Origin: a virus
Virus record (IMG/VR): IMGVR_UViG_3300021085_002574
Location: 1 to 24,426 of that record
DNA: 24,426 nt
Reading direction: 5' to 3' (one strand)
The stretch's first letter is position 1. Each line of letters begins with the position of its first letter. The notes below the pieces were generated by a model. The model did no database searches, was not told where the DNA came from, and worked only from the letters and a program-made list of their open reading frames with translations. Below, piece by piece: positions 550-21,886 of the stretch. The position numbers and the translations under genes were made by a program.

Positions 550-897
550 ATGGATGCTATAACTGTTATCCAAGAGGTAGGGTTTCCCATTGCCGCTTCA
601 CTTGGTCTTGGTTGGTTTATATATAAACTTATTATGCGAATTGTAGATGGCATGGAGACTAAACTTGATGTGGTAGATCAAAAAGTAGCAGAGCAAATAT
701 CAGCTATAGAAGATAGGCTAGGCACAAAACTTGATTCCCAACATGGTATTTTGGTAGCATTAATTGATAGGGTGCGAAGTTTAGACAATGAGATCATAAG
801 GCAAGATACTCTTATTAAGACTATTCTTGGCGTACCACAACTAATAGATAGCAGTAAAATTGCTAAGGCAGATAGAGATGACCAAAGAAAAGATTAA
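550..897 (+). CDS. Membrane-anchored coiled-coil protein, possible holin-like protein
   Basis: Encodes 115 residues. Residues about 8-28 (GFPIAASLGLGWFIYKLI) form one hydrophobic segment. They are followed by a predicted amphipathic coiled coil (about 35-95) with heptad-like Val/Leu/Ile spacing and a charged tail. One N-terminal membrane helix plus a coiled coil resembles BhlA/UviB-type putative holins and other small phage membrane proteins. It is far from the lysozyme (8050) but next to the curli genes, so a structural or envelope role is also possible. It starts directly after the preceding stop and overlaps the next gene by 20 bases. Confidence 0.75.
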   Translation: MDAITVIQEVGFPIAASLGLGWFIYKLIMRIVDGMETKLDVVDQKVAEQISAIEDRLGTKLDSQHGILVALIDRVRSLDNEIIRQDTLIKTILGVPQLIDSSKIAKADRDDQRKD

Positions 898-1420
898 AAG
901 AAAAAGAGGTAGACCCAGTAATGCAGAACTCGCTAGGAGAAAAGAAGAAGCTGAAAAAGATAAAATAATAAAATTAGTATCTATCGTAGGTATTCTTTTA
1001 ATTTTAGGTATCTTTATTCAAAATGCTATTGCTGATCAAATAGTACATAAGTTTAAATCACCATCTTTTAGTGGAATAAATACATCTAGCCATTATCTAA
1101 CTATAGAAAATCAAGAATTTAATCGTAAGCTTACAATCAAAGAAGAAATAAAAGCCTTACAAGATGAAATAGAAAGAGAAAAAGAAAACTCTACACTTGC
1201 TAGGTTCATGCGAAACTTAGAAAGCAGAGTCTATGCTGAACTTTCAAGACAGCTAGTTAGTAACTTATTTGGCGAAACGCCTTCTGATTCAGGAATTATT
1301 GAACTAGAAGGAAATATAATTGAATATACGAGTGATGGCGTAACATTAACCCTAAAAATAACAGAAGCAGATGGCACAGTCACAGAAATTACAATTCCTA
1401 TCGGTACTTTTACTTTCTAG
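878..1420 (+). CDS. csgF: Curli assembly factor CsgF-like protein with a long cationic N-terminus
   Basis: CsgF binds the CsgG outer-membrane pore and couples curlin export to fibre nucleation. I chose ATG 878 over an in-frame TTG at 860, giving 180 residues. Residues 5-22 are strongly basic and include KRKRGRPSN, like an AT-hook core. A hydrophobic segment spans about 31-48, with a likely signal cleavage after AIA (about 52). The mature start, QIVHKFKSPSFSG, matches the CsgF pattern FQFRNPNFGG, the part that inserts into CsgG. A later segment resembles CsgF in having a Leu-rich helix (SRQLVSNLFG) and a C-terminal beta part (about 145-180). It overlaps the membrane-protein gene upstream and csgG downstream. 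The long basic n-region is unlike enterobacterial CsgF. Confidence 0.85.
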   Translation: MTKEKIKRKRGRPSNAELARRKEEAEKDKIIKLVSIVGILLILGIFIQNAIADQIVHKFKSPSFSGINTSSHYLTIENQEFNRKLTIKEEIKALQDEIEREKENSTLARFMRNLESRVYAELSRQLVSNLFGETPSDSGIIELEGNIIEYTSDGVTLTLKITEADGTVTEITIPIGTFTF

Positions 1421-2237
1421 TTGTTCAATTTTTGACCAGTATGAAGATACATACGATCAAAGAGCAAATAACGACATAGTAAGGATAGATCAACTGCATT
1501 CTAAAGAATTAGCTAATGTACAAAAACCTCTAGTACAACCTATAGTAGCTGTATATCCAACAGCATTTACAGATCAAACAGGACAAAGAAAAAGTAACAG
1601 TGAATTTGCTTTATTTTCTACTGCTGTAACACAAGCACCCTACACATTATTAATTAGAGCATTAAAACATTCTAGTAATGGTGAATTTTTTAGAGTAGTA
1701 GAAAGGGTTGGTTTAGATAACTTAACAAAAGAAAGACAGCTAATTAGATCAGCAAGAGAACAATTTGCAAAAGATGGTGAAGAAAAGAACGTACCGCCAC
1801 TGCTCTTTGCAGGTGTATTGCTAGAAGGTGCTGTAATAAGCTATGATAGTAACTTGTCAACTGGTGGTGTTGGTGCTAGGTATCTAGGAATAGGTAAAAG
1901 CATTCAATATAGAGAAGACAATATTACAGTTAGTCTTCGTATGGTATCAGTTGCAACAGGTGAGATACTTATAGAAGTATTAAGCCAAAAAACCATATTT
2001 AGTTATGGCAAATCAGAAGATGTTTTTAGATTCATAGAGATGGGTACTGAACTTGTAGAAATTGAATTAGGTAATTCAAGAAACGAGTCAACAACGATTG
2101 CACTGATGAAAGCTATAGAAGGTGCAGTCTTAGAGCTAATAAATATCGGATACGATAGGAGTTTTTGGAAACATGAAGAAACTGAAATTACTAAGCCTGA
2201 TTGCGATGATGATTGCATCACCAACATACGCGGCTGA
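1371..2237 (+). CDS. csgG: Curli secretion channel CsgG (outer-membrane lipoprotein)
   Basis: CsgG forms a nonameric outer-membrane pore that exports curlin subunits. The 288-residue frame begins with a short lipoprotein signal whose lipobox is LSSC, with lipidated Cys18. Family landmarks appear in order: a VAVYPTAFTDQTGQ start, FSTAV followed by a Leu-rich helix with RALK, LTKERQLIRSARE, an EGAVISYDSN stretch, GGVGARYLGIG, VSLRMVSVATGEIL, then the F-R-F-I-E and DRSFWK ends. Length is close to the family norm (about 277 in E. coli). The loop preceding FSTAV differs from the E. coli Tyr/Asn/Phe constriction region: the Phe is kept while the Tyr and Asn positions appear changed. It overlaps csgF by 50 bases and the curlin-like gene by 65. 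Confidence 0.93.
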   Translation: MAQSQKLQFLSVLLLSSCSIFDQYEDTYDQRANNDIVRIDQLHSKELANVQKPLVQPIVAVYPTAFTDQTGQRKSNSEFALFSTAVTQAPYTLLIRALKHSSNGEFFRVVERVGLDNLTKERQLIRSAREQFAKDGEEKNVPPLLFAGVLLEGAVISYDSNLSTGGVGARYLGIGKSIQYREDNITVSLRMVSVATGEILIEVLSQKTIFSYGKSEDVFRFIEMGTELVEIELGNSRNESTTIALMKAIEGAVLELINIGYDRSFWKHEETEITKPDCDDDCITNIRG

Positions 2238-2904
2238 TAACGAAATATTTGTAGATCAATCAGGAACAGGTGCAAATATAGATTTAGAACAACTAGGTAT
2301 ATCTAATATTATAGGTGGTCTTAACACAGAAGCAGGAAGTCTCACAGCTTTTGATTTAGATGGAAATTCTATGACTTTAGATATCAATATGATTGGTGCA
2401 ACAAATAAATTTTTAGGTGATATATACGCTGATAACTTTACAGGTTTGTATAATTTCACTGGTTCAACTAATTCTTTTACTATCCAAGTAGACCCAACTA
2501 ATAGTTTTGGTGCAGATGGTTCTGATCATAATATTGCAGTAACTGGTGCTTCTAATACATTTACATTGAATCAAGGAACTACTGCACTATCCGCAAGTCT
2601 TAATTTAGATTGGATTATTCAAGGTTCTAACAATACCATTACATCAAATATAAATATTGACGGTGCTACTAATTATATGGATATAGATGGTTCTGATAAT
2701 ACAGTTACATATACAGGTACTGGTGTTAATGCTTCAGCAGGTGGATATTTCTATCTAGACCATACAGGTGGTCAAAGAACATTTAATATTCAACAATTAA
2801 GTACACAGGACAATGACTGGCTCAAAATCATATCAGTGGGTGGCAACTCTTCTTCTACTGTTTGTGTTATCCAAAACGATCAAGGCACAAGCACAGGCTG
2901 TTGA
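2173..2904 (+). CDS. Secreted curlin-like repeat protein (candidate CsgG substrate)
   Basis: Encodes 243 residues with a clear Sec signal peptide (KK start, hydrophobic core, cleavage near TYA-A at 20-21). Just after it, VDQSGTGANIDLEQLGISN gives the curlin-type spacing Q-x-G...N...Q-x-G-x-x-N. The rest is low in charge and rich in Asn, Gly, Ser and Thr, with recurring G-x-x-N-x-hydrophobic units (GATNKF, GSTNSF, GASNTF, GSNNTI, GATNYM, GSDNTV) spaced roughly 12-25 residues. This looks like a beta-solenoid or amyloid-like repeat. Two Cys sit near the C-terminus. AGGAG at 2159-2163 is about nine bases before ATG. It overlaps csgG by 65 and the FecR gene by 92 bases. It is not a canonical CsgA, and substrate status is inferred from context. 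Confidence 0.8.
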   Translation: MKKLKLLSLIAMMIASPTYAADNEIFVDQSGTGANIDLEQLGISNIIGGLNTEAGSLTAFDLDGNSMTLDINMIGATNKFLGDIYADNFTGLYNFTGSTNSFTIQVDPTNSFGADGSDHNIAVTGASNTFTLNQGTTALSASLNLDWIIQGSNNTITSNINIDGATNYMDIDGSDNTVTYTGTGVNASAGGYFYLDHTGGQRTFNIQQLSTQDNDWLKIISVGGNSSSTVCVIQNDQGTSTGC

Positions 2905-3931
2905 TATTGGAGATATATCTGAGCTAAATGGCTCAGCACAAATAGTTAGAGATAAGCCCTATAATGCAAACCTAAAATTTGCTATACAAAGCAATGATGA
3001 AGCTATTACTTCTAATGGAAGAATGGCAATTAAATTTCTTGATGAATCTACAGTCAAACTTACTGAACACTCACAGCTATTAATAGATGAATATATCTAT
3101 GACCCCGACCCATCTAAATCTAAGATGGCTCTTACCTTTGGATTAGGCACAGCAAGATTTATCACAGGCAATCTTAATAGAATAGATAAACAGAATATAA
3201 AACTTAAAACTCCTACTGCAAATATAGCAATCAGAGGTACAGATTTTACAGCTACTGTAGATGAACTAGGCAGGTCATTAATAATACTGCTACCCGATGC
3301 TCTGGGCTTGTCTAGTGGTGAGATAGAAGTAGTTACTGCTATGGGTACAGTTTTACTAAATAAACCATTTCAAGCCACTACAGTTAATGTCTTTGAATCT
3401 AAACCTAGTAAACCAGTTATCTTAGATTTAACTCTAGATATTATTGATAATATGTTAATAGTCACACCACCAAAAAAAGAAATAAGTCTTACAGAAGAAA
3501 TTGCACAAAATTCACAACAAAATATATTAGATTTTAACGATTTAGATATTGATTATCTTGATAAAGATTTTTTTGGTAAAGATGAATTAGAGTTTACAGA
3601 ACTAGATATTAACTATCTTGATACTAACTATCTTGAAGATTTATTAAATGTCTTAGATGCACTTGCAGTAAATAAACAAGAAGATGTTTTAGCTGTAGTT
3701 GGTGGTATTGACGTTCAAGGCACAAAAATTGGTCAAGATACAGAAACACAGATAACCACTCTAATAGCAGGTAATGTTATAAGTCTTAGAAGAGATGTTA
3801 ATAATTCTGCAAGATTAGATCTAAATGGTGATGATGCTTATACTCTTATCATAATTCAAGATGGCGTTTCTAATGTTATTAAGATAAATGGCGGTGGTGA
3901 CTCTGTTATTAGTATTACGCAAAGCGACTAA
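2813..3931 (+). CDS. Periplasmic or exported FecR-domain protein with a curlin-like C-terminal repeat
   Basis: Encodes 372 residues. A signal peptide (WVATLLLLFVLS core, cleavage near AQAQA, about 25-29) leads into a FecR domain at about 33-165. Its markers are LNGSAQIVR, ITSNGRMAIKFLDES, and TPTANIAIRGTDFTATV. An acidic linker (about 240-285) repeats LDIDYLD / LDINYLD. The last 25 residues carry IIQDGVSN...INGGGDS...ITQS, which matches curlin spacing. FecR-domain proteins read or relay envelope signals, and to my knowledge such genes often neighbour CHASE2 cyclases, one of which lies 986 bases downstream. The 92-base overlap with the curlin-like gene suggests coupled synthesis. The stop overlaps the convergent gene by four bases. 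Confidence 0.85.
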   Translation: MTGSKSYQWVATLLLLFVLSKTIKAQAQAVDIGDISELNGSAQIVRDKPYNANLKFAIQSNDEAITSNGRMAIKFLDESTVKLTEHSQLLIDEYIYDPDPSKSKMALTFGLGTARFITGNLNRIDKQNIKLKTPTANIAIRGTDFTATVDELGRSLIILLPDALGLSSGEIEVVTAMGTVLLNKPFQATTVNVFESKPSKPVILDLTLDIIDNMLIVTPPKKEISLTEEIAQNSQQNILDFNDLDIDYLDKDFFGKDELEFTELDINYLDTNYLEDLLNVLDALAVNKQEDVLAVVGGIDVQGTKIGQDTETQITTLIAGNVISLRRDVNNSARLDLNGDDAYTLIIIQDGVSNVIKINGGGDSVISITQSD

Positions 3932-4413
3932 TTCCACCATGCAGGTTTATCTGTACCTTTTTCCCATTTAGCATAATGCTTTTCAGCAATCATATATTTA
4001 CGATATGCATCAATATGATCTAAACTGTTTTTGTATTCTAAAGGCATAGCCTGTGCAAAAGGTGTTATATCACCTTCTTGTATATTCATAGGAAACCTTT
4101 TTAAACCATCCCATAGTTTTGTCCATGAAGCATGGTGCCTTCCATATCTGAAATAATACTCTTCACATAATGTTATGAAGTGCAGCAATAACCATCTGTA
4201 GTTTTCATGTGTTTCACGCGCCCACACAGTGCAAGGGTGGTTGTAATATGCTTTCTTATACAAACCCATCTCCTCACAGTAGTCTGCAGGACTAAGGTAT
4301 CTGTGAGCCGTAGATAGCATCTGCGCTGTTTCTAATGGCATTTTTACTATTAGCTTATCGGGCAATGCTCTAGCTGATGCGACAGCACAATCTTCTACTG
4401 CAAATATATTCAT
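3928..4413 (-). CDS. Conserved phage protein of the 'MNIF...KMPLETAQML' type, unknown function
   Basis: Encodes 161 residues. The N-terminal MNIFAVEDCAVASARALPDK and the following KMPLETAQMLSTAHRYL, then HPCTVWARETHENYRWL, YYFRYGRHHAS and TPFAQAMPLEYK, match a family I recall from cyanophages and other marine phages. It is usually annotated hypothetical, sometimes as pyrimidine-dimer glycosylase. I see no resemblance to T4 endonuclease V and do not endorse that name. Conserved His, Cys, Trp and Arg positions suggest an enzyme or nucleic-acid-binding protein. Its ATGA overlaps the upstream stop, so it is the last gene of a three-gene leftward cassette driven from 4866-4871/4844-4849. Confidence 0.85.
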   Translation of the reverse strand: MNIFAVEDCAVASARALPDKLIVKMPLETAQMLSTAHRYLSPADYCEEMGLYKKAYYNHPCTVWARETHENYRWLLLHFITLCEEYYFRYGRHHASWTKLWDGLKRFPMNIQEGDITPFAQAMPLEYKNSLDHIDAYRKYMIAEKHYAKWEKGTDKPAWWN

Positions 4414-4580
4414 TTATCTGCTTTAATTAAGTCTAGTAAAAAAATAATTGTATCTTCTTTATATTCTGCTTGTTTTAAAGCATCAATCACATCAAACCTT
4501 GTATATCCTAGATCAATCATTTGGTTCATTTTAGCAACAATTTTATTTATCGCTATTTCTCTTTTGCTTAGTTTTTTCAT
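4410..4580 (-). CDS. Small helical protein, unknown function
   Basis: Encodes 56 residues from ATG 4580, which has a good AAGGAG six bases upstream. Longer in-frame starts lie inside the upstream gene and lack such a site. The sequence (MKKLSKREIAINKIVAK..., then GYTRFDVIDALKQAEY) is amphipathic and helix-rich, possibly a small DNA- or protein-binding fold, with no recognised family. It is the middle gene of the leftward cassette. A perfect hairpin at 4604-4621 separates it from the first gene, and its stop overlaps the next start (ATGA). Confidence 0.75.
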   Translation of the reverse strand: MKKLSKREIAINKIVAKMNQMIDLGYTRFDVIDALKQAEYKEDTIIFLLDLIKADK

Positions 4581-4603
4581 ATTTTTCTCCTTAAATGAAG
4601 GTC

Positions 4604-4621
4604 TGCTGTTAAACAACAGCA
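4604..4621 (-). other. Perfect 7-bp-stem hairpin between the first two cassette genes
   Basis: TGCTGTT and AACAGCA form a perfect inverted repeat with a four-base loop. It contains the stop codon of the 66-aa gene and lies 24 bases before the next start. No T-run follows in the leftward direction, so it is not a standard terminator. It may be an mRNA processing or stability element, or an attenuator. The half-sequence TGTTAAACAA is shared with the operator-like dyads at 4828 and 11158. Confidence 0.55.
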
Positions 4622-4809
4622 AACCCTTTGTGACAAATTGCAGCAACACAATGTTCAACTTTATATAGTTGAAATATTGCTGTAACTCTTGTTGATTCAG
4701 GCACACCAACCACAATAGGTCTAAATTGTGAAAGGTTATATTTTTCTAGAGCTTTTTCTAAATTAGCTAAATTAGCGTAACTTTTTGTATCTGTTAGTAA
4801 GTTGTCCAT
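4609..4809 (-). CDS. Small phage protein, first gene of the leftward cassette, unknown function
   Basis: Encodes 66 residues from ATG 4809, with AGGAA upstream. The earlier in-frame Met codons fall in the promoter repeat and are not credible. It has an N-terminal helix (YANLANLEKALEKYNL) and a C-terminal beta-like half (RPIVVGVPES, TAIFQLYK, GFAVV). This arrangement is familiar from short phage proteins of unknown function. Two Cys are present in the last 15 residues. It is transcribed from the 50-bp promoter repeat immediately upstream, and its TAA lies within the hairpin at 4604-4621. Confidence 0.75.
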   Translation of the reverse strand: MDNLLTDTKSYANLANLEKALEKYNLSQFRPIVVGVPESTRVTAIFQLYKVEHCVAAICHKGFAVV

Positions 4810-4824
4810 TTTTTGTTTCCTATT

Positions 4825-4874
4825 TTTGTTTAACATAATAAACATTATATAGACTTTTATGACCAATACAACCC
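4825..4874 (-). promoter_or_regulatory. Leftward promoter/operator, copy 1 of an exact 50-bp repeat
   Basis: On the minus strand, TTGTAT (4866-4871) and TATAAT (4844-4849) are separated by 16 bases. A 16-bp dyad, GTTTATTATGTTAAAC (4828-4843), abuts the -10 box where RNA polymerase would start. The same 50 bases occur at 11155-11204. The -35 side also forms AACCC-TTTAT-GGGTT at 4870-4884, which copy 2 lacks. The element faces the three-gene cassette 4809-3928. The dyad position would let a repressor block initiation. Confidence 0.75.
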
Positions 4875-4917: not shown

Positions 4918-6696
4918 ATGAAAAAACTTATATTTCCGATACTAATACTTACATCATTACCTCTAATTTTTGGAAGTAATGTGCAACAGGTAATAAAGCT
5001 TAGAACTTTTGATAACTTTATCAAACAGTATATGCCATCTGATAATTTTGTAATTCTTAATATTACTGAAGATGATGTGGAAAGAGAAGGAGGTTATCCT
5101 CTACCACGAAGACGATTAGCAGAGATTCAAGTAGAACTCATAAATCGTGGTGCTATTGGTGTCGGATGGGTTATATCTTTCCCGCAAGAAGATAGGCTAG
5201 GAGGTGATGTAGCTTTTGCAGAAGCACTTGGATATGCACCTTCAGTTATCGCTATGTTTGAAGATGGAAAAAATAAGTATCCTAAATCCACTGGTACGGT
5301 TGTCAAAGGTAATCATGTTGATGGTATAGTAAGTATGGGCGTTAAGGAAAACCTGAACACTCTTACAGATAATACATTGCAGGGTCTAGCCATTGCGCCC
5401 ACTGAAGTTGATCAGTTAGTAAGAAGAATACCACTTTTAGTAAGCACTCCTGATGGTGAATGGATACCTGCATTCGGCACACAAATATATAAAGCTTTAT
5501 TTAATGTAGACACATACATTGTTGCTACTGGTGTAAATGGTATTGAAGAAATATCTATAAGGGGTATACCTCCTGTTAAAACAGACGGTCTTGGTCGTAA
5601 GTGGATTAGTTGGGTTGATACTAAACAAACAGATCTTAAAGAAATGAACGTAGAAGGTAAGTTTGTATTTGTAGGTGTTACAGCTAATGGTGTAATGCCT
5701 CAGATTGCAACTCCAGTCGGATTATTAGAGCCGCATCGCATACAGGCAGCCCTTGCTGAGTCAATTCTTATACAGGATAGCCCATATATACCTGATTGGT
5801 CTTTAGCTGCAGAAATGATTATATTTTTTGTTTCTGTAAGCCTTATATGGCTTGTATTAAACGCTTTTGGTGTCACTTGGGGTGTTTTGTTAGCTATATT
5901 AATAATGTTTTCCACAGCTTATACAGGATATAAACTCATACACAACGGAATCTTGCTTGATGTAACTTGGTCTTTAATATCACAGTTTATAACAGGCTCT
6001 TTAGCTCTATATTTAAGATTTAGAGAACAATGGAAACTTAGGGAACAGATAAAAGGTCAATTTGAGCATTATCTTGACCCAAGACAAGTCAAAAAATTAC
6101 AAGATAACCCTACATTATTAAAACTTGGCGGTGAAAGGCGTTATGCAACTTTTTTATTTACAGATGTTCGTGGTTTTACAGCTTTATCAGAATCATTGGA
6201 ACCTGAACAAGTAACTTACATCATGAACAGAGCATTGACTGCACAACAAGAAGCAGTGCAAAAACATGGTGGTATGGTTGATAAATATATAGGTGATGCA
6301 ATGATGGCTATTTTCAATGCACCTATTGATCTAAAAGAACATGAAACAAAGGCATTAGAATGTGCTATAGATATACAAAAAAATATGCACGAACTAAATT
6401 ATGTATTGGTAGATGAAGGCATAACACCAGTTACTATAGGTATAGGAATAAATACAGGATATGCAGTTATAGGCAATATGGGTTCTAAAAATAGATTTGA
6501 TTATACTGCTATAGGTGATGCTGTTAATGTTGCGGCAAGACTTGAATCAGGAACAAAACAAGCAGGTGTAGATTTGTTGATTGGTCAAACTACAAAAAAT
6601 GCTATAAAATTAGAATTAACATCTTTAGAGCCAATACAGGCTAAAGGTAAAAGCGAAAAATTACAGGTGTATACATGGGGTTCAAATTATCGTTAG
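4918..6696 (+). CDS. CHASE2-domain transmembrane class III adenylate cyclase
   Basis: Encodes 592 residues predicted to make cAMP from ATP in response to a periplasmic cue. An N-terminal anchor (about 4-20) is followed by a CHASE2 sensor (about 25-285), three membrane helices (about 294-318, 321-342, 350-370), a linker and a class III cyclase domain (about 400-585). Catalytic parts look intact: metal-binding Asp416 (FTDVRGF) and Asp460 (YIGDAM), purine-reading Lys456 and Asp528 (FDYTAIGD), and transition-state Asn537 and Arg541 (NVAAR). The Lys/Asp pair favours ATP over GTP. Length and order match cellular CHASE2 cyclases, so it is not a fragment. It ends 22 bases inside the i-spanin gene. 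Such a complete sensor cyclase is very unusual in a phage. Confidence 0.93.
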   Translation: MKKLIFPILILTSLPLIFGSNVQQVIKLRTFDNFIKQYMPSDNFVILNITEDDVEREGGYPLPRRRLAEIQVELINRGAIGVGWVISFPQEDRLGGDVAFAEALGYAPSVIAMFEDGKNKYPKSTGTVVKGNHVDGIVSMGVKENLNTLTDNTLQGLAIAPTEVDQLVRRIPLLVSTPDGEWIPAFGTQIYKALFNVDTYIVATGVNGIEEISIRGIPPVKTDGLGRKWISWVDTKQTDLKEMNVEGKFVFVGVTANGVMPQIATPVGLLEPHRIQAALAESILIQDSPYIPDWSLAAEMIIFFVSVSLIWLVLNAFGVTWGVLLAILIMFSTAYTGYKLIHNGILLDVTWSLISQFITGSLALYLRFREQWKLREQIKGQFEHYLDPRQVKKLQDNPTLLKLGGERRYATFLFTDVRGFTALSESLEPEQVTYIMNRALTAQQEAVQKHGGMVDKYIGDAMMAIFNAPIDLKEHETKALECAIDIQKNMHELNYVLVDEGITPVTIGIGINTGYAVIGNMGSKNRFDYTAIGDAVNVAARLESGTKQAGVDLLIGQTTKNAIKLELTSLEPIQAKGKSEKLQVYTWGSNYR

Positions 6697-7079
6697 CATT
6701 AGGTGGCTTGCTGCTAATATCCCTTACAAGCAGCACTTGGTATATAAACAAATTACAAGATCAAATAGCAGTTTTAAAAGGCAATCAAATAGCTTTAGAA
6801 AATTCTATAGAACAACAAAACGAATCTATTAAAAAAAATCTAGCAAAACAAAAACAAACACAAGAGCAAGTAAATGTTCTAACTGCAAAGAACCAAGAAG
6901 CACAAAGAGAAGTTAATAAACTTAAAAATACTTTTGCAAAACATGATCTAGATAATCTTGCTTTAGCTAAACCAAAGCTAATAGAAAATATAGTTAATAA
7001 GGGAACAAAGAAAGTCAAAGAAGACTTTGTAGCTTTAACCAATCCTAATCAGTTTGATGAAAAATCTAATAATAGTTAG
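6675..7079 (+). CDS. Inner-membrane spanin-like protein (Rz-like)
   Basis: Encodes 134 residues. An N-terminal membrane anchor (about 4-22) is followed by a long Gln/Lys/Glu-rich coiled coil (about 25-90) and then NTFAKHDLDNLALAKPKLIE and a VNKGTKKV stretch. This tail is typical of phage i-spanins, which link inner and outer membranes and disrupt the envelope at the end of lysis. AGGTG lies six bases before ATG. It overlaps the cyclase end by 22 bases and the o-spanin start by 23, the overlapping layout usual for Rz/Rz1 pairs. It is therefore the first gene of the lysis block and is physically joined to the cyclase gene. Confidence 0.85.
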   Translation: MGFKLSLALGGLLLISLTSSTWYINKLQDQIAVLKGNQIALENSIEQQNESIKKNLAKQKQTQEQVNVLTAKNQEAQREVNKLKNTFAKHDLDNLALAKPKLIENIVNKGTKKVKEDFVALTNPNQFDEKSNNS

Positions 7080-7443
7080 TTTAACCTTATTCTACTTCAC
7101 AGCGTGTTCTATGTTGCCAACGCAACCTAAACCTGTGGAAGTTATAACAGTTGCAGAGCCATCCCCTATGTATCACCCGCCACTCCCAATAGAGTTATCT
7201 ATGGCGGATATTGATTGGGAAATTTTAACCCCCCAAATAATGGAAGAGTACCTTTCAGATTTAGAAACAGGCTCTGCACCTGAAACAGCATATTATTCAT
7301 TGACCACTAAAGATTATGAAAATCTATCAATGAACATGGCAGAAATAAAACGCTATATCAAAGAAACTTTACACATCATTAAGTTTTATAGAGATTATGA
7401 TAAGCAAGATCAACCTGAAGAAAAGGTGTCAGACACAAGATAA
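7057..7443 (+). CDS. Outer-membrane lipoprotein spanin-like protein (Rz1-like)
   Basis: Encodes 128 residues from ATG 7057, three bases after a TTG that could also open the frame. A lipoprotein signal ends in lipobox FTAC (Cys17). A Pro-rich stretch follows (PTQPKPVEV, YHPPLPIEL), then DIDWEILTPQIMEEYL, LTTKDYENLSMNMAEIKRYI and an Ile/Lys-rich helix. The LTxKDYENLSxN segment is familiar from o-spanin-like proteins of T4-like and marine phages. It is longer than lambda Rz1 but within the range of larger o-spanins. It should partner the upstream i-spanin across the periplasm. Confidence 0.8.
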   Translation: MKNLIIVSLTLFYFTACSMLPTQPKPVEVITVAEPSPMYHPPLPIELSMADIDWEILTPQIMEEYLSDLETGSAPETAYYSLTTKDYENLSMNMAEIKRYIKETLHIIKFYRDYDKQDQPEEKVSDTR

Positions 7444-7652: not shown

Positions 7653-8048
7653 ATGTCTAAATCAGTCACACCATTTGTATACAACGCTATACTTGAAAGG
7701 GTAATAGATGGAGACACCATAGATGTGACTTTAGATTTAGGCTTTGACGTAAAGCTTCACAAACAAAGATGCAGACTTAATGGGATTGATACCCCTGAGT
7801 CACGAACTAGAAATTTAGAAGAAAAAGCACTTGGTCTTCAAGCAAAAGAAAGGCTAAAAGAATTATGTGCTGTAAAATTAGTAATACAATCACATGGGAA
7901 GGGAAAATATGGAAGGATTCTTGCGACACCTTTTACAAAAGATGGAAAAGATATTTGCCAAGCCCTTGTCAAAGAAGGACACGCAGTTGAATACTGGGGT
8001 GGCAAAAAAACAGCCAAAGTCAAAAAAGATGGAACTTGGGGAGAGTAA
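7653..8048 (+). CDS. Staphylococcal-nuclease-fold (SNase/thermonuclease-like) protein
   Basis: Encodes 131 residues, about the size of the bare SNase domain. Diagnostic parts are VIDGDTIDV (first strand and metal Asp), RLNGIDTPES (catalytic Arg and following acidic residue), the helix EEKALGLQAKERLKEL, and YGRILA (second catalytic Arg) with a Tyr/Trp-rich end. Calcium-dependent SNases cut DNA and RNA. No signal peptide is present, so it should act in the cytoplasm, perhaps in host DNA breakdown, or be released at lysis. It starts three bases after the holin-like gene and stops one base before the endolysin start. Confidence 0.88.
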   Translation: MSKSVTPFVYNAILERVIDGDTIDVTLDLGFDVKLHKQRCRLNGIDTPESRTRNLEEKALGLQAKERLKELCAVKLVIQSHGKGKYGRILATPFTKDGKDICQALVKEGHAVEYWGGKKTAKVKKDGTWGE

Positions 8049-8049
8049 T

Positions 8050-8499
8050 ATGAAAATATCACAAGAAGGAATAGCGCTTATTAAAGTATTTGAAGGGTGT
8101 AAATTAGAATCTTATAAATGTGCCGCAGATGTTTGGACAATAGGCTATGGTCATACAAAGTCTGTAGCAGAAGGGCAAGAGATAACACAGGAAGAAGCAG
8201 ATAGTATATTGCTTTCTGATCTAGAGATATATGAAGATGCTGTGCTTAAAGCTGTAGAAGTACCATTACATCAACATCAATTTGATGCTTTAGTTTCATG
8301 GACTTTTAATCTTGGTGGTGCAAACCTAAACGCTTCAACGATGCTTAAAGTAATTAACAAAGCTGAATATGAAGATGTTCCTGCACAGATAAAGAGATGG
8401 AATAAAGCAGGTGGAAAGGTGCTACAAGGTCTTATAAGGCGTAGAGAAGCAGAAGCACTATTATTTGAAGGTAAAGACTGGGAAAATGGCACTAAGTAA
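8050..8499 (+). CDS. GH24 lysozyme-type endolysin
   Basis: Encodes 149 residues, a normal length for T4/P22-like muramidases that cut peptidoglycan between MurNAc and GlcNAc. I chose ATG 8050 because the family start MKISQEGIALIKVFEG lies there and GGGGAGAG sits just upstream; a longer frame from 7894 only overlaps the nuclease gene. The catalytic pattern E-x8-(D/C)-x5-T is met by Glu15, Cys24 and Thr30 (WTIGYGHT), the Cys variant known in phage lysozymes. LVSWTFNLG and RRREAEALLFEG are further family marks. No signal-anchor is seen, so release should depend on a holin. Confidence 0.93.
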   Translation: MKISQEGIALIKVFEGCKLESYKCAADVWTIGYGHTKSVAEGQEITQEEADSILLSDLEIYEDAVLKAVEVPLHQHQFDALVSWTFNLGGANLNASTMLKVINKAEYEDVPAQIKRWNKAGGKVLQGLIRRREAEALLFEGKDWENGTK

Positions 8500-10884: not shown

Positions 10885-11130
10885 TTATAGCACTGCTATT
10901 TTTTCTGCTAGGTCATGAAAGTTTGCATCTTCTAAAGCTTCACTAGCAACTGTTAATATTTTATCCCCATCCCATTTAGTAAATTTACTAACTACAAGCG
11001 CAAGCGCTTCCTCATCTGTAGCATGATGATCAGCAACAAATGATTTTTTCTTAATTGCTTCAAGCAATACAGGTAACACTTGATCAATCATTGCATCAGT
11101 GCTTTGGTTTGTGTCTAAAGTAATATTCAT
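10885..11130 (-). CDS. First gene of the leftward early operon, small acidic protein of unknown function
   Basis: Encodes 81 residues from ATG 11130, set by a strong AAAAGGAG seven bases upstream; upstream in-frame Met codons lie in the promoter. The product is acidic and helical (STDAMIDQVLPVLLEAIKKK, DEEALALVVSKFTKWDGDK, ASEALEDANFHDLAEKI). No Cys-based site or known fold. As the promoter-proximal gene it is probably the most strongly expressed of the set, as is common for early host-takeover proteins. That role is inference. Confidence 0.78.
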   Translation of the reverse strand: MNITLDTNQSTDAMIDQVLPVLLEAIKKKSFVADHHATDEEALALVVSKFTKWDGDKILTVASEALEDANFHDLAEKIAVL

Positions 11131-11154
11131 ATTATCTCCTTTTAAATTATGTAC

Positions 11155-11204
11155 TTTGTTTAACATAATAAACATTATATAGACTTTTATGACCAATACA
11201 ACCC
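11155..11204 (-). promoter_or_regulatory. Leftward early promoter/operator, copy 2 of an exact 50-bp repeat
   Basis: Identical to 4825-4874. On the minus strand -35 TTGTAT (11196-11201) and -10 TATAAT (11174-11179) are 16 bases apart, with dyad GTTTATTATGTTAAAC at 11158-11173 at the start point. It lies between the recombination block and the small early genes and drives 11130 to 8703. Copy 2 differs just outside the repeat, so the duplicated unit is the promoter and operator alone. Confidence 0.75.
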
Positions 11205-19718: not shown

Positions 19719-20221
19719 TGGCAGATCAAAACTTTGATGTACCACTTAAACCTTTCCAAATAAGCAATCCTGTAGTAGCAATAACAACAATTGATCTCAA
19801 TGAACAGTACATAGAGCCTGCAAATGATGTGCTAGATAATTTGTTTCCTGTAAAAGGTAGGTCACTTAGAACTTGGGGAAGAAATAAAAATCAACATGCA
19901 AGCAAAGACCCACACTGGATGCGAATAAAAAAAGGTACTCCGTTGCACACAGACCCTCTATATGAAAGGTATAGCCATCACTTTGTTTTAAAGGCAGAAG
20001 ATTATGGTCTGAGAGGTTATGATAAGGTAGAAACAAAAATCAAAAGAGGTACTGTGTATGTACTTGATGTGCATTCACCACACCAAGTAACATATCACGA
20101 TGAAAAAAATCCTTGGTATCTAAGCGTATCTTTTGATGCTAACTCAATAGTTCCTTTTGAAGAGTCAATACCAATACTTATCAAATACGCTTTAACCGCT
20201 GACTTCATAAAAACTAAGTAA
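19718..20221 (+). CDS. Putative 2-oxoglutarate/Fe(II) oxygenase-like protein
   Basis: Encodes 167 residues. A candidate iron site is His77-x-Asp79 (PLHTDP) with a later His at 119 or 122 (LDVHSPHQV) after GTVYVLDV, the spacing of cupin-like 2OG oxygenases. The usual downstream Arg is not obvious; Lys130 lies nearby. Asp/Asn-hydroxylase-like or nucleic-acid oxygenase are both possible. ATG shares a base with the upstream stop (TAATG). Its end overlaps the convergent gene by eight bases. Confidence 0.72.
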   Translation: MADQNFDVPLKPFQISNPVVAITTIDLNEQYIEPANDVLDNLFPVKGRSLRTWGRNKNQHASKDPHWMRIKKGTPLHTDPLYERYSHHFVLKAEDYGLRGYDKVETKIKRGTVYVLDVHSPHQVTYHDEKNPWYLSVSFDANSIVPFEESIPILIKYALTADFIKTK

Positions 20222-20690
20222 TATTCTGCGCATTGTATGAATTCTTTAATGCATGCATAAGGTGATCTTTGGCAATGTTAAAGTCATTATAGCCATTAAC
20301 AATACTCTCAAAGTATCGGCTTGATGGCGGGTATACATCATTACTGTTCATTAAATAAATCATAACTTTGGTAGTACCAAACATATCACCTAAAGCAGGT
20401 ATATTGATAACTTGCTTTCTATATAAGTTAGGATACCCTTCATAAATATCTAACTTACCTTCACAAACATCAGTAATCCTCCATAAACCTAAAGGTACTT
20501 GTCCATCATCACTAGGCTCTATATCAGCAACACCTCTAAACTTTAAGGCAAAGCCATCAACTATTGCGCTACCCAATGGCTCAGCATGTGGGCATCTGTA
20601 TTGCATTTGTCCCATGTTTAGATTGCTTCCATATGCACCGTATAAGTAATCCATATTTTTCACAGGTTTTTCTTCTAGAATTTTATTCAT
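20214..20690 (-). CDS. Gamma-glutamylcyclotransferase-like (GGCT/AIG2) protein
   Basis: Encodes 158 residues. YGAYGSNLNMGQM holds the substrate-binding Y-G-S-N-L loop, and KLDIYEGYPNLYRK carries the likely catalytic Glu of the GGCT fold. Members cleave gamma-glutamyl amines or peptides into 5-oxoproline and a free amine. AAAAGGAG lies ahead of ATG. It is the second gene after the amidoligase, a pairing described for phages by Iyer and colleagues (amidoligase comparative study). Together they may make and remove a peptide-like link. Confidence 0.9.
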   Translation of the reverse strand: MNKILEEKPVKNMDYLYGAYGSNLNMGQMQYRCPHAEPLGSAIVDGFALKFRGVADIEPSDDGQVPLGLWRITDVCEGKLDIYEGYPNLYRKQVINIPALGDMFGTTKVMIYLMNSNDVYPPSSRYFESIVNGYNDFNIAKDHLMHALKNSYNAQNIT

Positions 20691-20706
20691 GTTATCTCCT
20701 TTTTAA

Positions 20707-21732
20707 TTAATTTAGTTCTAGTTGTCGTTCTTGGTAAAAAGTTTTGACTTTGTTGTCAGCACCATCTAACCATCCACCATCTACTTCTTGTGTTGTAGTA
20801 TTTGGTGTATTTACATTTATTGTTTGCAAGCTTGTAATCAAACCATGCACAACCATAAAATCTTTTAACCTTTCTAGGTTTATATTTGTTTCTCTCGCTC
20901 CATCATATAAAGCTGTAAGCGTGTGATTTTCAAAACGTATAATATTGTTTGTATCATAATCAACAATATCCCAACCTTTAAGGCTGCTATTCCATCTGAT
21001 CTCGTAGCCTGCATTTTCTACAGCGTTTCTAATTTTACCAAATGCTCTACTGTTACTAACCCTTCTAGTAGCAGTGGCAAGCTTTGCACTTTTTTCCACA
21101 AAAGCTTGTAAAAAACTAACCCAGTTTATTATCTTCTCAAAATTAAGAGTTCCGCTGTGTTGTCTAAACTCCATTGTTCCGTATCTAGCAAGACTTTGTA
21201 AATTTACTTTGTAATATCTACCAACAGTGCTTGCTAAACGCATTTTAGTATTTGCTCTTTTAATATACCTCTTATTGTTTCCAATGCTTGCACACCACCT
21301 TGAACCATTACCCCTTCTACTTCTAGGCATAATCATATCTATTTGGCTCTCGTAGTCTGCATATCTTTCATAAGCATTTTGTATTTGTCTAACAGTAAGA
21401 TCATTAACATCTAAATGAACATGCATACCACACTGTATGTCTACACCAATACCATCAAGATCATCTAATGCAGTTAAAATTTTCTCTAACTGCAACGCAC
21501 CCTCAACACCCTTTAGTATAGGGCTAACCAATTCGCCACCAACACCATCTAAACTGGCATCAGTAACAATCTTCCAGTAAGGTCTAGTGTTATGGTGATA
21601 ACCCTCAAAGTAACACTCAATACCATCTACATTGTTAATAGTCTCTGCAACTGTTCTAGGTGATATACCTACAAATTCCAATTCAACCCCAAAGGTTCTA
21701 TCTGTAAGTGTTGGGTAAGTTAAGCTATTCAT
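20707..21732 (-). CDS. Amidoligase-family enzyme (COOH-NH2 ligase type)
   Basis: Encodes 341 residues. FGVELEF opens the glutamine-synthetase-like catalytic fold and is followed by VTDASLDGVGGELVSPIL, CGMHVHLDV and GTMEFRQHSGTLN, the metal/ATP and acid-base motifs of Amidoligase_2. Members join a carboxylate and an amine with ATP. The C-terminal 80 residues are less conserved and may bind the partner. The start has GGAG at 21741-21738 (minus strand). Its promoter region carries the GTTTA-N6-TAAAC dyad. The substrate is unknown. Confidence 0.9.
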   Translation of the reverse strand: MNSLTYPTLTDRTFGVELEFVGISPRTVAETINNVDGIECYFEGYHHNTRPYWKIVTDASLDGVGGELVSPILKGVEGALQLEKILTALDDLDGIGVDIQCGMHVHLDVNDLTVRQIQNAYERYADYESQIDMIMPRSRRGNGSRWCASIGNNKRYIKRANTKMRLASTVGRYYKVNLQSLARYGTMEFRQHSGTLNFEKIINWVSFLQAFVEKSAKLATATRRVSNSRAFGKIRNAVENAGYEIRWNSSLKGWDIVDYDTNNIIRFENHTLTALYDGARETNINLERLKDFMVVHGLITSLQTINVNTPNTTTQEVDGGWLDGADNKVKTFYQERQLELN

Positions 21733-21886
21733 ATTATCTCCGTTTAAATTAATTACTTAATACAGTTATTTTACATAAAATGTTTATAAATGTAAACATG
21801 TAAATATAAAATAAATGGACTTATTGTGCTTTTTTCTTTACTTTTTGGCTGTTTGACTACAGAATAACGATAAATAGAGATAAATT
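21733..21886. promoter_or_regulatory. Divergent intergenic region with promoter and operator-like dyad
   Basis: Facing left, -35 TTTACA (21791-21796) and -10 TAAAAT (21768-21773) are 17 bases apart. The dyad GTTTATAAATGTAAAC at 21782-21797 covers the -35 box and part of the spacer, so a bound protein should block this promoter. Facing right to the packaging genes, I see no convincing promoter; TTGACT near 21853 lacks a good -10. The rest is AT-rich without further structure. Confidence 0.6.

Follow-up and report, generated by a model that had tools for sequence, protein, structure and literature searches.

The window analysed here is the whole of the IMG/VR virus contig IMGVR_UViG_3300021085_002574, 24,426 bp long, and its plus strand carries a curli (type VIII secretion, T8SS) cassette followed by lysis genes. 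The first cassette gene (550..897) encodes a small protein of 115 amino acids with one predicted transmembrane (TM) helix and a coiled coil, whose homologues stand at the equal place in related cassettes. It is followed by the genes of the curli pore accessory protein CsgF (860..1420; Pfam CsgF, 2.5e-15), whose true start probably lies downstream of 860, and of CsgG, the outer-membrane curli secretion pore (1371..2237; Pfam CsgG, 1.1e-47). The next gene (2173..2904) encodes a curlin-like repeat protein, a candidate secreted fibre subunit, recognised by its homology to the annotated curlins of Pelagibacter phage HTVC008M and Methylophilales phage Melnitz; the Melnitz homologue matches Pfam Curlin_rpt at 8.6e-6, and the window copy stays below the cut-off. 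CsgF, CsgG and a curlin-type gene therefore occur together, the first two by Pfam and the third by homology. The csg genes are followed by those of a FecR-domain protein of 372 amino acids (2813..3931; Pfam FecR, 2.3e-9) with a hydrophobic N-terminus that by eye resembles a signal peptide, and of an adenylate cyclase of 592 amino acids with an ATG start (4918..6696). Between these two genes lies an insert of small genes on the minus strand (3928..4866), including that of a phrog_624 DNA-binding protein; the insert gene at 3928-4413 is present too in the relatives L004, L007 and L008. Downstream, all on the plus strand, are an Rz-like i-spanin (6675..7079; phrog_739, 9.5e-12), an Rz1-like o-spanin (7054..7443; phrog_812, 1.6e-15) and an endolysin of the phage lysozyme type (7894..8499; Pfam Phage_lysozyme, 9e-48). 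The cyclase gene closes a phage curli cassette of a kind already known from marine phages, pelagiphage cassettes with FecR and adenylate cyclase having been reported before (PMC9599517); the present case shows it in a siphophage lineage as well.

The preliminary description had left room for the stretch being host DNA. Contamination of this kind is ruled out by the virus record, by the phage genes of the window (terminase, spanins, lysozyme and primase) and by the structural genes of two sister contigs of 46 kb (G001) and 53 kb (G002), whose terminases match that of the window at 71 and 88%. The lineage was assigned to the siphophages because the related G002 has portal, major head (major capsid), tape-measure and tail genes. 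Compared by terminase and tape-measure protein, even the nearest isolates are distant and form a diverse set, with Roseobacter and Pelagibacter phages among them, and a marine alphaproteobacterium as host is a guess. No structured RNAs were found within the window.

Other features of the window were recorded. A perfect repeat of 50 nt (4825-4874 and 11155-11204) lies upstream of two opposite-strand gene blocks and contains, on the minus strand, TTGTAT-16-TATAAT; it may be an early promoter common to both blocks, brought along by the insert that parts FecR from the cyclase. A family of 33-nt repeats (79-100%) at minus-strand gene starts (11124-11156, 20684-20716 and 21726-21758) resembles a ribosome-binding or leader element common to these genes. 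At 20214-21732 an amidoligase (phrog_2443, 9e-45) stands beside a protein that by eye is gamma-glutamylcyclotransferase-like, a pair also found in G002.

The cyclase and its active site

The cyclase is a real, intact and selectively maintained membrane enzyme, as the preliminary description had held for its integrity. Both Pfam domains are well over the cut-off (CHASE2 at residues 14-307, E 6.1e-24; Guanylate_cyc at residues 410-581, E 4.2e-20), the active site is present, the AlphaFold model has a mean pLDDT of 88 and a pTM of 0.67, and NG86 dN/dS values of 0.12-0.17, obtained against eight relatives, indicate purifying selection, some of the dS values being near or above 1 and thus saturated. 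In the model an N-terminal helix is followed by the CHASE2 region, of mixed alpha/beta structure, by three helices at 295-316, 319-342 and 350-372+, and by the cyclase domain. The sensor region and the membrane helices are hence complete, as had been claimed, with CHASE2 placed between an N-terminal TM helix and three further ones. In Foldseek searches the catalytic domain superimposed on Pseudomonas aeruginosa CyaB (3r5g) and Arthrospira CyaC (1wc1) with an rmsd of 1.6 A, and BFVD has a full-length viral match, a 'COG4252' protein of an uncultured Caudovirales.

The catalytic residues had been listed as Asp416, Asp460, Lys456, Asp528, Asn537 and Arg541, and all are placed correctly except Asp528. 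The metal-binding pair Asp416 and Asp460, Lys456 and the transition-state residue Arg541 are kept in 80/80 viral relatives in the alignment, and its companion Asn537 in 79/80. The second purine-recognition position is Thr530, which is taken to have this role from CyaC-type cyclases and from the alignment; it is Thr or Ser in 79 of the 80 viral relatives. Asp528 lies two residues upstream and varies in bacterial cyclases (E, A, D, N or T). The enzyme belongs to class IIIb, since it is Thr530 and not Asp528 that sits at this position. Adenine is specified in these enzymes by Lys with Asp (IIIa) or Lys with Thr or Ser (IIIb), and by alignment the window cyclase has Lys456 with Thr530. The predicted product is cAMP from ATP, the specificity being read from these two residues. 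Class III cyclases can take other bases, and one near PDB relative by sequence, Synechocystis Cya2, is a guanylyl cyclase; a different product or role, for example a cyclic nucleotide other than cAMP by which nucleotide-based host defence is disturbed, might be envisaged on these grounds. It is very improbable, because the Lys456 and Thr530 pair is of the adenylyl type, the aligned Lys position is Glu in Cya2 (chain 2w01), and the neighbourhood has no link to defence. Among the cultured phages, the Melnitz cyclase (L162 9923-11974) has Ser for the transition-state Asn and Asp for Thr530, and may therefore be altered or inactive.

Distribution of the cassette and its lysis neighbourhood

Such an enzyme had been considered exceptional for phages, which does not hold: at least 599 IMG/VR stretches encode relatives of the cyclase, it is annotated in cultured HTVC008M and in four strains of Melnitz, and it has been published (PMC9599517). 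The phylogeny against bacterial CHASE2 cyclases that the preliminary description had proposed was run with 35 viral and 59 bacterial proteins, and in this tree, obtained by a quick method and with long branches flagged, the viral copies form one clade (SH-aLRT 98). A recent capture from a known bacterium was rejected, since the nearest bacterial proteins share no more than about 25-30% identity in full-length comparison and the viral copies are one clade. The CHASE2 region is retained in the aligned relatives. Parts of the window cassette have different nearest relatives, the cyclase being 90% to that of L002, and CsgG and FecR 90% and 86% to those of L006, which points to recombination of the cassette. 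A supposed Acinetobacter phage, MD-2021a (L163, CAKLQH020000011.1), was dropped as a relative because it carries bacterial chromosome genes (mfd, the isc cluster and cyaA).

The gene order in the IMG/VR loci is one or two small single-TM proteins, CsgF, CsgG, curlin-like protein, FecR and cyclase, and then spanins and/or lysozyme. The block recurs in HTVC008M and Melnitz, where a second gene for curlin lies between FecR and cyclase and where the cassette adjoins baseplate and tail genes, not lysis genes. A 'histidine kinase', sometimes two, has been described at the head of the cassette (PMC9599517). At this place stand one or two TM proteins of 88-116 amino acids without a kinase domain; they, and among them the window protein, are probably what the label refers to, and it is then probably a misnomer. 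Homologues of the window protein occur, in one or two copies, both in the IMG/VR relatives and in the cultured phages HTVC008M and Melnitz, where they match at E 1e-22 to 1e-25. Small coiled-coil proteins with a single TM helix stand first in the cassette at 550-897 of the window, at 4848-5410 of L161 and at 5216-5854 of L162. A holin function for the 550-897 protein was discarded, the match being weak (E 0.012) and the homologues in myophage cassettes lying away from lysis genes. FecR and cyclase are reported to be absent from bacterial curli operons (PMC9599517). A survey of 385 alphaproteobacterial genomes agrees: CsgF was found in 6 of them, 5 over the cut-off, and near these five genes no homologues of the cyclase, FecR or the small TM protein were found with HMMs made from the phage genes.

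The cyclase gene had been said to overlap the i-spanin, and so it does, the ATG of Rz being at 6675 and the stop of the cyclase at 6696, with 22 nt in common; the same 22-nt overlap recurs in nine relatives. The cyclase could then act as a lysis timer, co-expressed with spanins and endolysin so that late cAMP would set or support the moment of lysis, and a lysozyme gene is indeed found within 3 kb downstream of the cyclase in 46 of the 49 metagenomic relatives with enough sequence. A lysis role has also been proposed for the curli pore itself (PMC9004378). However, the timing with lysis that had been drawn from the overlap looks weak, since, of the 36 relatives in which a spanin was detected, 13 show a cyclase/spanin overlap and 23 have gaps of 14-411 nt, and since the cultured myophages HTVC008M and Melnitz are exceptions to the lysis-gene order. 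Moreover, no cAMP receptor is known in phage or SAR11, a cNMP-binding domain having been found in none of 42 phage records and in only 14/247 genomes of the SAR11 order, and the adjacency fits simple co-transcription in a late operon. The timer is hence unlikely. Since lysis genes are not found beside the cassette of the cultured myophages, their proximity is a trait of particular lineages rather than of the module itself; late co-expression may still occur, given the lysozyme genes within 3 kb. What stays constant is the FecR-cyclase pair with the curli genes upstream. In podophage-type relatives a protein weakly similar to GTA_holin_3TM (L028 9700-10394; E 0.0058, under the cut-off) lies between cyclase and lysozyme, and a small TM protein is likewise found there.

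FecR, cAMP and a proposed sensor

In 70 of the 73 loci with enough sequence FecR is the gene immediately before the cyclase, and in 60/70 the distance from the FecR stop to the cyclase start is -8 to 0 nt, so that the genes touch or overlap as in translational coupling. Opposite-strand small genes part the two in the window and in a few relatives, most others having no gap. In bacteria a FecR domain lies no more than 4 kb from 16 of 51 CHASE2 domains, where 0.33 would be expected, an excess of about 50-fold; the count covers 23 genomes that were picked for having related cyclases and are not independent. Campylobacterota CHASE2 cyclases mostly lie beside FecR, TPR and phosphodiesterase genes (PMC9239204), and in a Burkholderia biofilm operon FecR is paired with a CHASE2 kinase (PMC5192318). 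The CHASE2 cyclases of Sinorhizobium meliloti respond to a protein signal via an outer-membrane beta-barrel (PMC13001267), and CyaD1 with its CHASE2 deleted produces cAMP constitutively (PMC5498481). The FecR protein is likely the sensory partner of the cyclase. Its predicted structure has a pLDDT of 36 and is unusable for the FecR-CHASE2 contact. The C-terminus of FecR bears curlin-like motifs in all 43 copies; a curlin fusion was rejected, the profile-profile match having a probability of 0.7%, which is not significant.

It is proposed, with moderate confidence, that the receptor-type membrane adenylate cyclase and the FecR protein encoded upstream of it form a two-protein sensor that is a fixed part of the phage curli cassette. 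Late in infection the phage would install the CsgG/CsgF pore and export the curlin-like protein. FecR, in the periplasm or at the outer membrane, would detect the state of this machinery or of the envelope and would signal to the periplasmic CHASE2 region. The three TM helices and the linker helix would then alter the cytoplasmic cyclase dimer, leading to the formation of cAMP from ATP, and cAMP would alter the behaviour of the infected cell. Behind the sensor stand the gene identity, active site, fold and selection of the cyclase, the conservation of the cassette, the FecR-cyclase pairing in phages and the FecR-CHASE2 clustering in bacteria. Against it are counted the opposite-strand insert in the window and the closest alphaproteobacterial cyclases, which adjoin type I secretion genes (TolC/ABC/HlyD-type, neighbours named by eye) and not FecR.

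The cassette cyclase has so far been explained by analogy with model Gammaproteobacteria, in which cAMP turns on curli via CsgD (PMC9599517). SAR11 is the cultured host group of HTVC008M, and genomes of this order were surveyed for cNMP-binding domains and class III cyclases. The genomes were chosen, and the order so named, by the presumed site of the 16S probe SAR11-441; the site of G269 lies within its 16S gene. A cNMP-binding domain was detected in only 14/247 genomes, although the host of the window phage may differ, and 13 of these 14 show matches of a single type, which mostly fall in a frame of 870 aa. No class III cyclase was detected in the 247 genomes, and no cNMP-binding domain in the 42 phage records, many of them fragments. 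Hence the proposed cAMP step has no obvious receptor in SAR11, bacteria that seem mostly to be without anything known to read cAMP, and the analogy to Gammaproteobacteria is weakened for this group. This matters because marine phages very commonly carry the cassette. The results suggest a more testable idea, namely that FecR and CHASE2 are a sensor of the secretion machinery.

A host-reprogramming role, in which phage cAMP acts on host CRP-family regulators and changes metabolism or surface structures, is possible but doubtful: the host of the window phage may be other than SAR11, many alphaproteobacteria have cAMP-binding proteins and close bacterial cyclases stand beside a cNMP-binding and EAL protein (domains assigned by eye), but so few genomes of the SAR11 order have the binding domain. 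The lack of class III cyclases and near lack of receptors in that order would also suit an enzyme that gives no signal inside the infected cell, either draining ATP or making cAMP that leaves the cell, at lysis or by way of the curli pore, and acts on neighbouring cells. This is quite improbable; for a drain, the conserved CHASE2 sensor and its FecR partner would be needless. Returning to the FecR-cyclase sensor, a bolder and rather unlikely reading is that phages bring a full cAMP-making sensor into cells without a class III cyclase or canonical receptor, where cAMP would act through a non-canonical receptor or outside the infected cell, switched by the amyloid secretion machinery via FecR.

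Comparison with known systems

Bacterial FecR and CHASE2 pairs (PMC9239204, PMC5192318) have adjacent genes for a FecR-domain protein and a CHASE2 receptor, as in the phages; the phage version differs in being joined to a curli cassette, and no phosphodiesterase or TPR partner was identified in it. The cyclases CyaD1, CyaD2 and CyaK of S. meliloti, with NsrA and Clr (PMC13001267, PMC5498481), are likewise CHASE2 cyclases whose control comes from outside the cytoplasm. As receptor for cAMP this species has Clr, whereas a cNMP-binding protein was not found in the 42 phage records.

Alphaproteobacterial cyclases (L082-L085, L088, L094 and L097) share the domain architecture, at about 25-30% full-length identity, and also stand beside a secretion apparatus. 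This apparatus is of the TolC/ABC/HlyD type instead of curli, and a gene with cNMP-binding and EAL domains lies next door. In all seven (L082, L083, L084, L085, L088, L094, L097) the cyclase comes directly after the type I secretion-like genes and opposite the cNMP-binding and EAL protein, an arrangement that suggests a circuit leading from cAMP to c-di-GMP and linked with secretion.

The closest system is the T8SS cassette of the pelagiphages (PMC9599517, PMC7029224, PMC9004378; HTVC008M and Melnitz), which has equal genes in equal order and whose cyclases fall in the one viral clade. The window cassette differs from it in that FecR and cyclase are split by the opposite-strand insert, in that there is no separate second curlin gene, and in that spanins and endolysin follow directly. 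Moreover, the carriers described in PMC9599517 are podo- and myophages, while the lineage described here is that of a siphophage.
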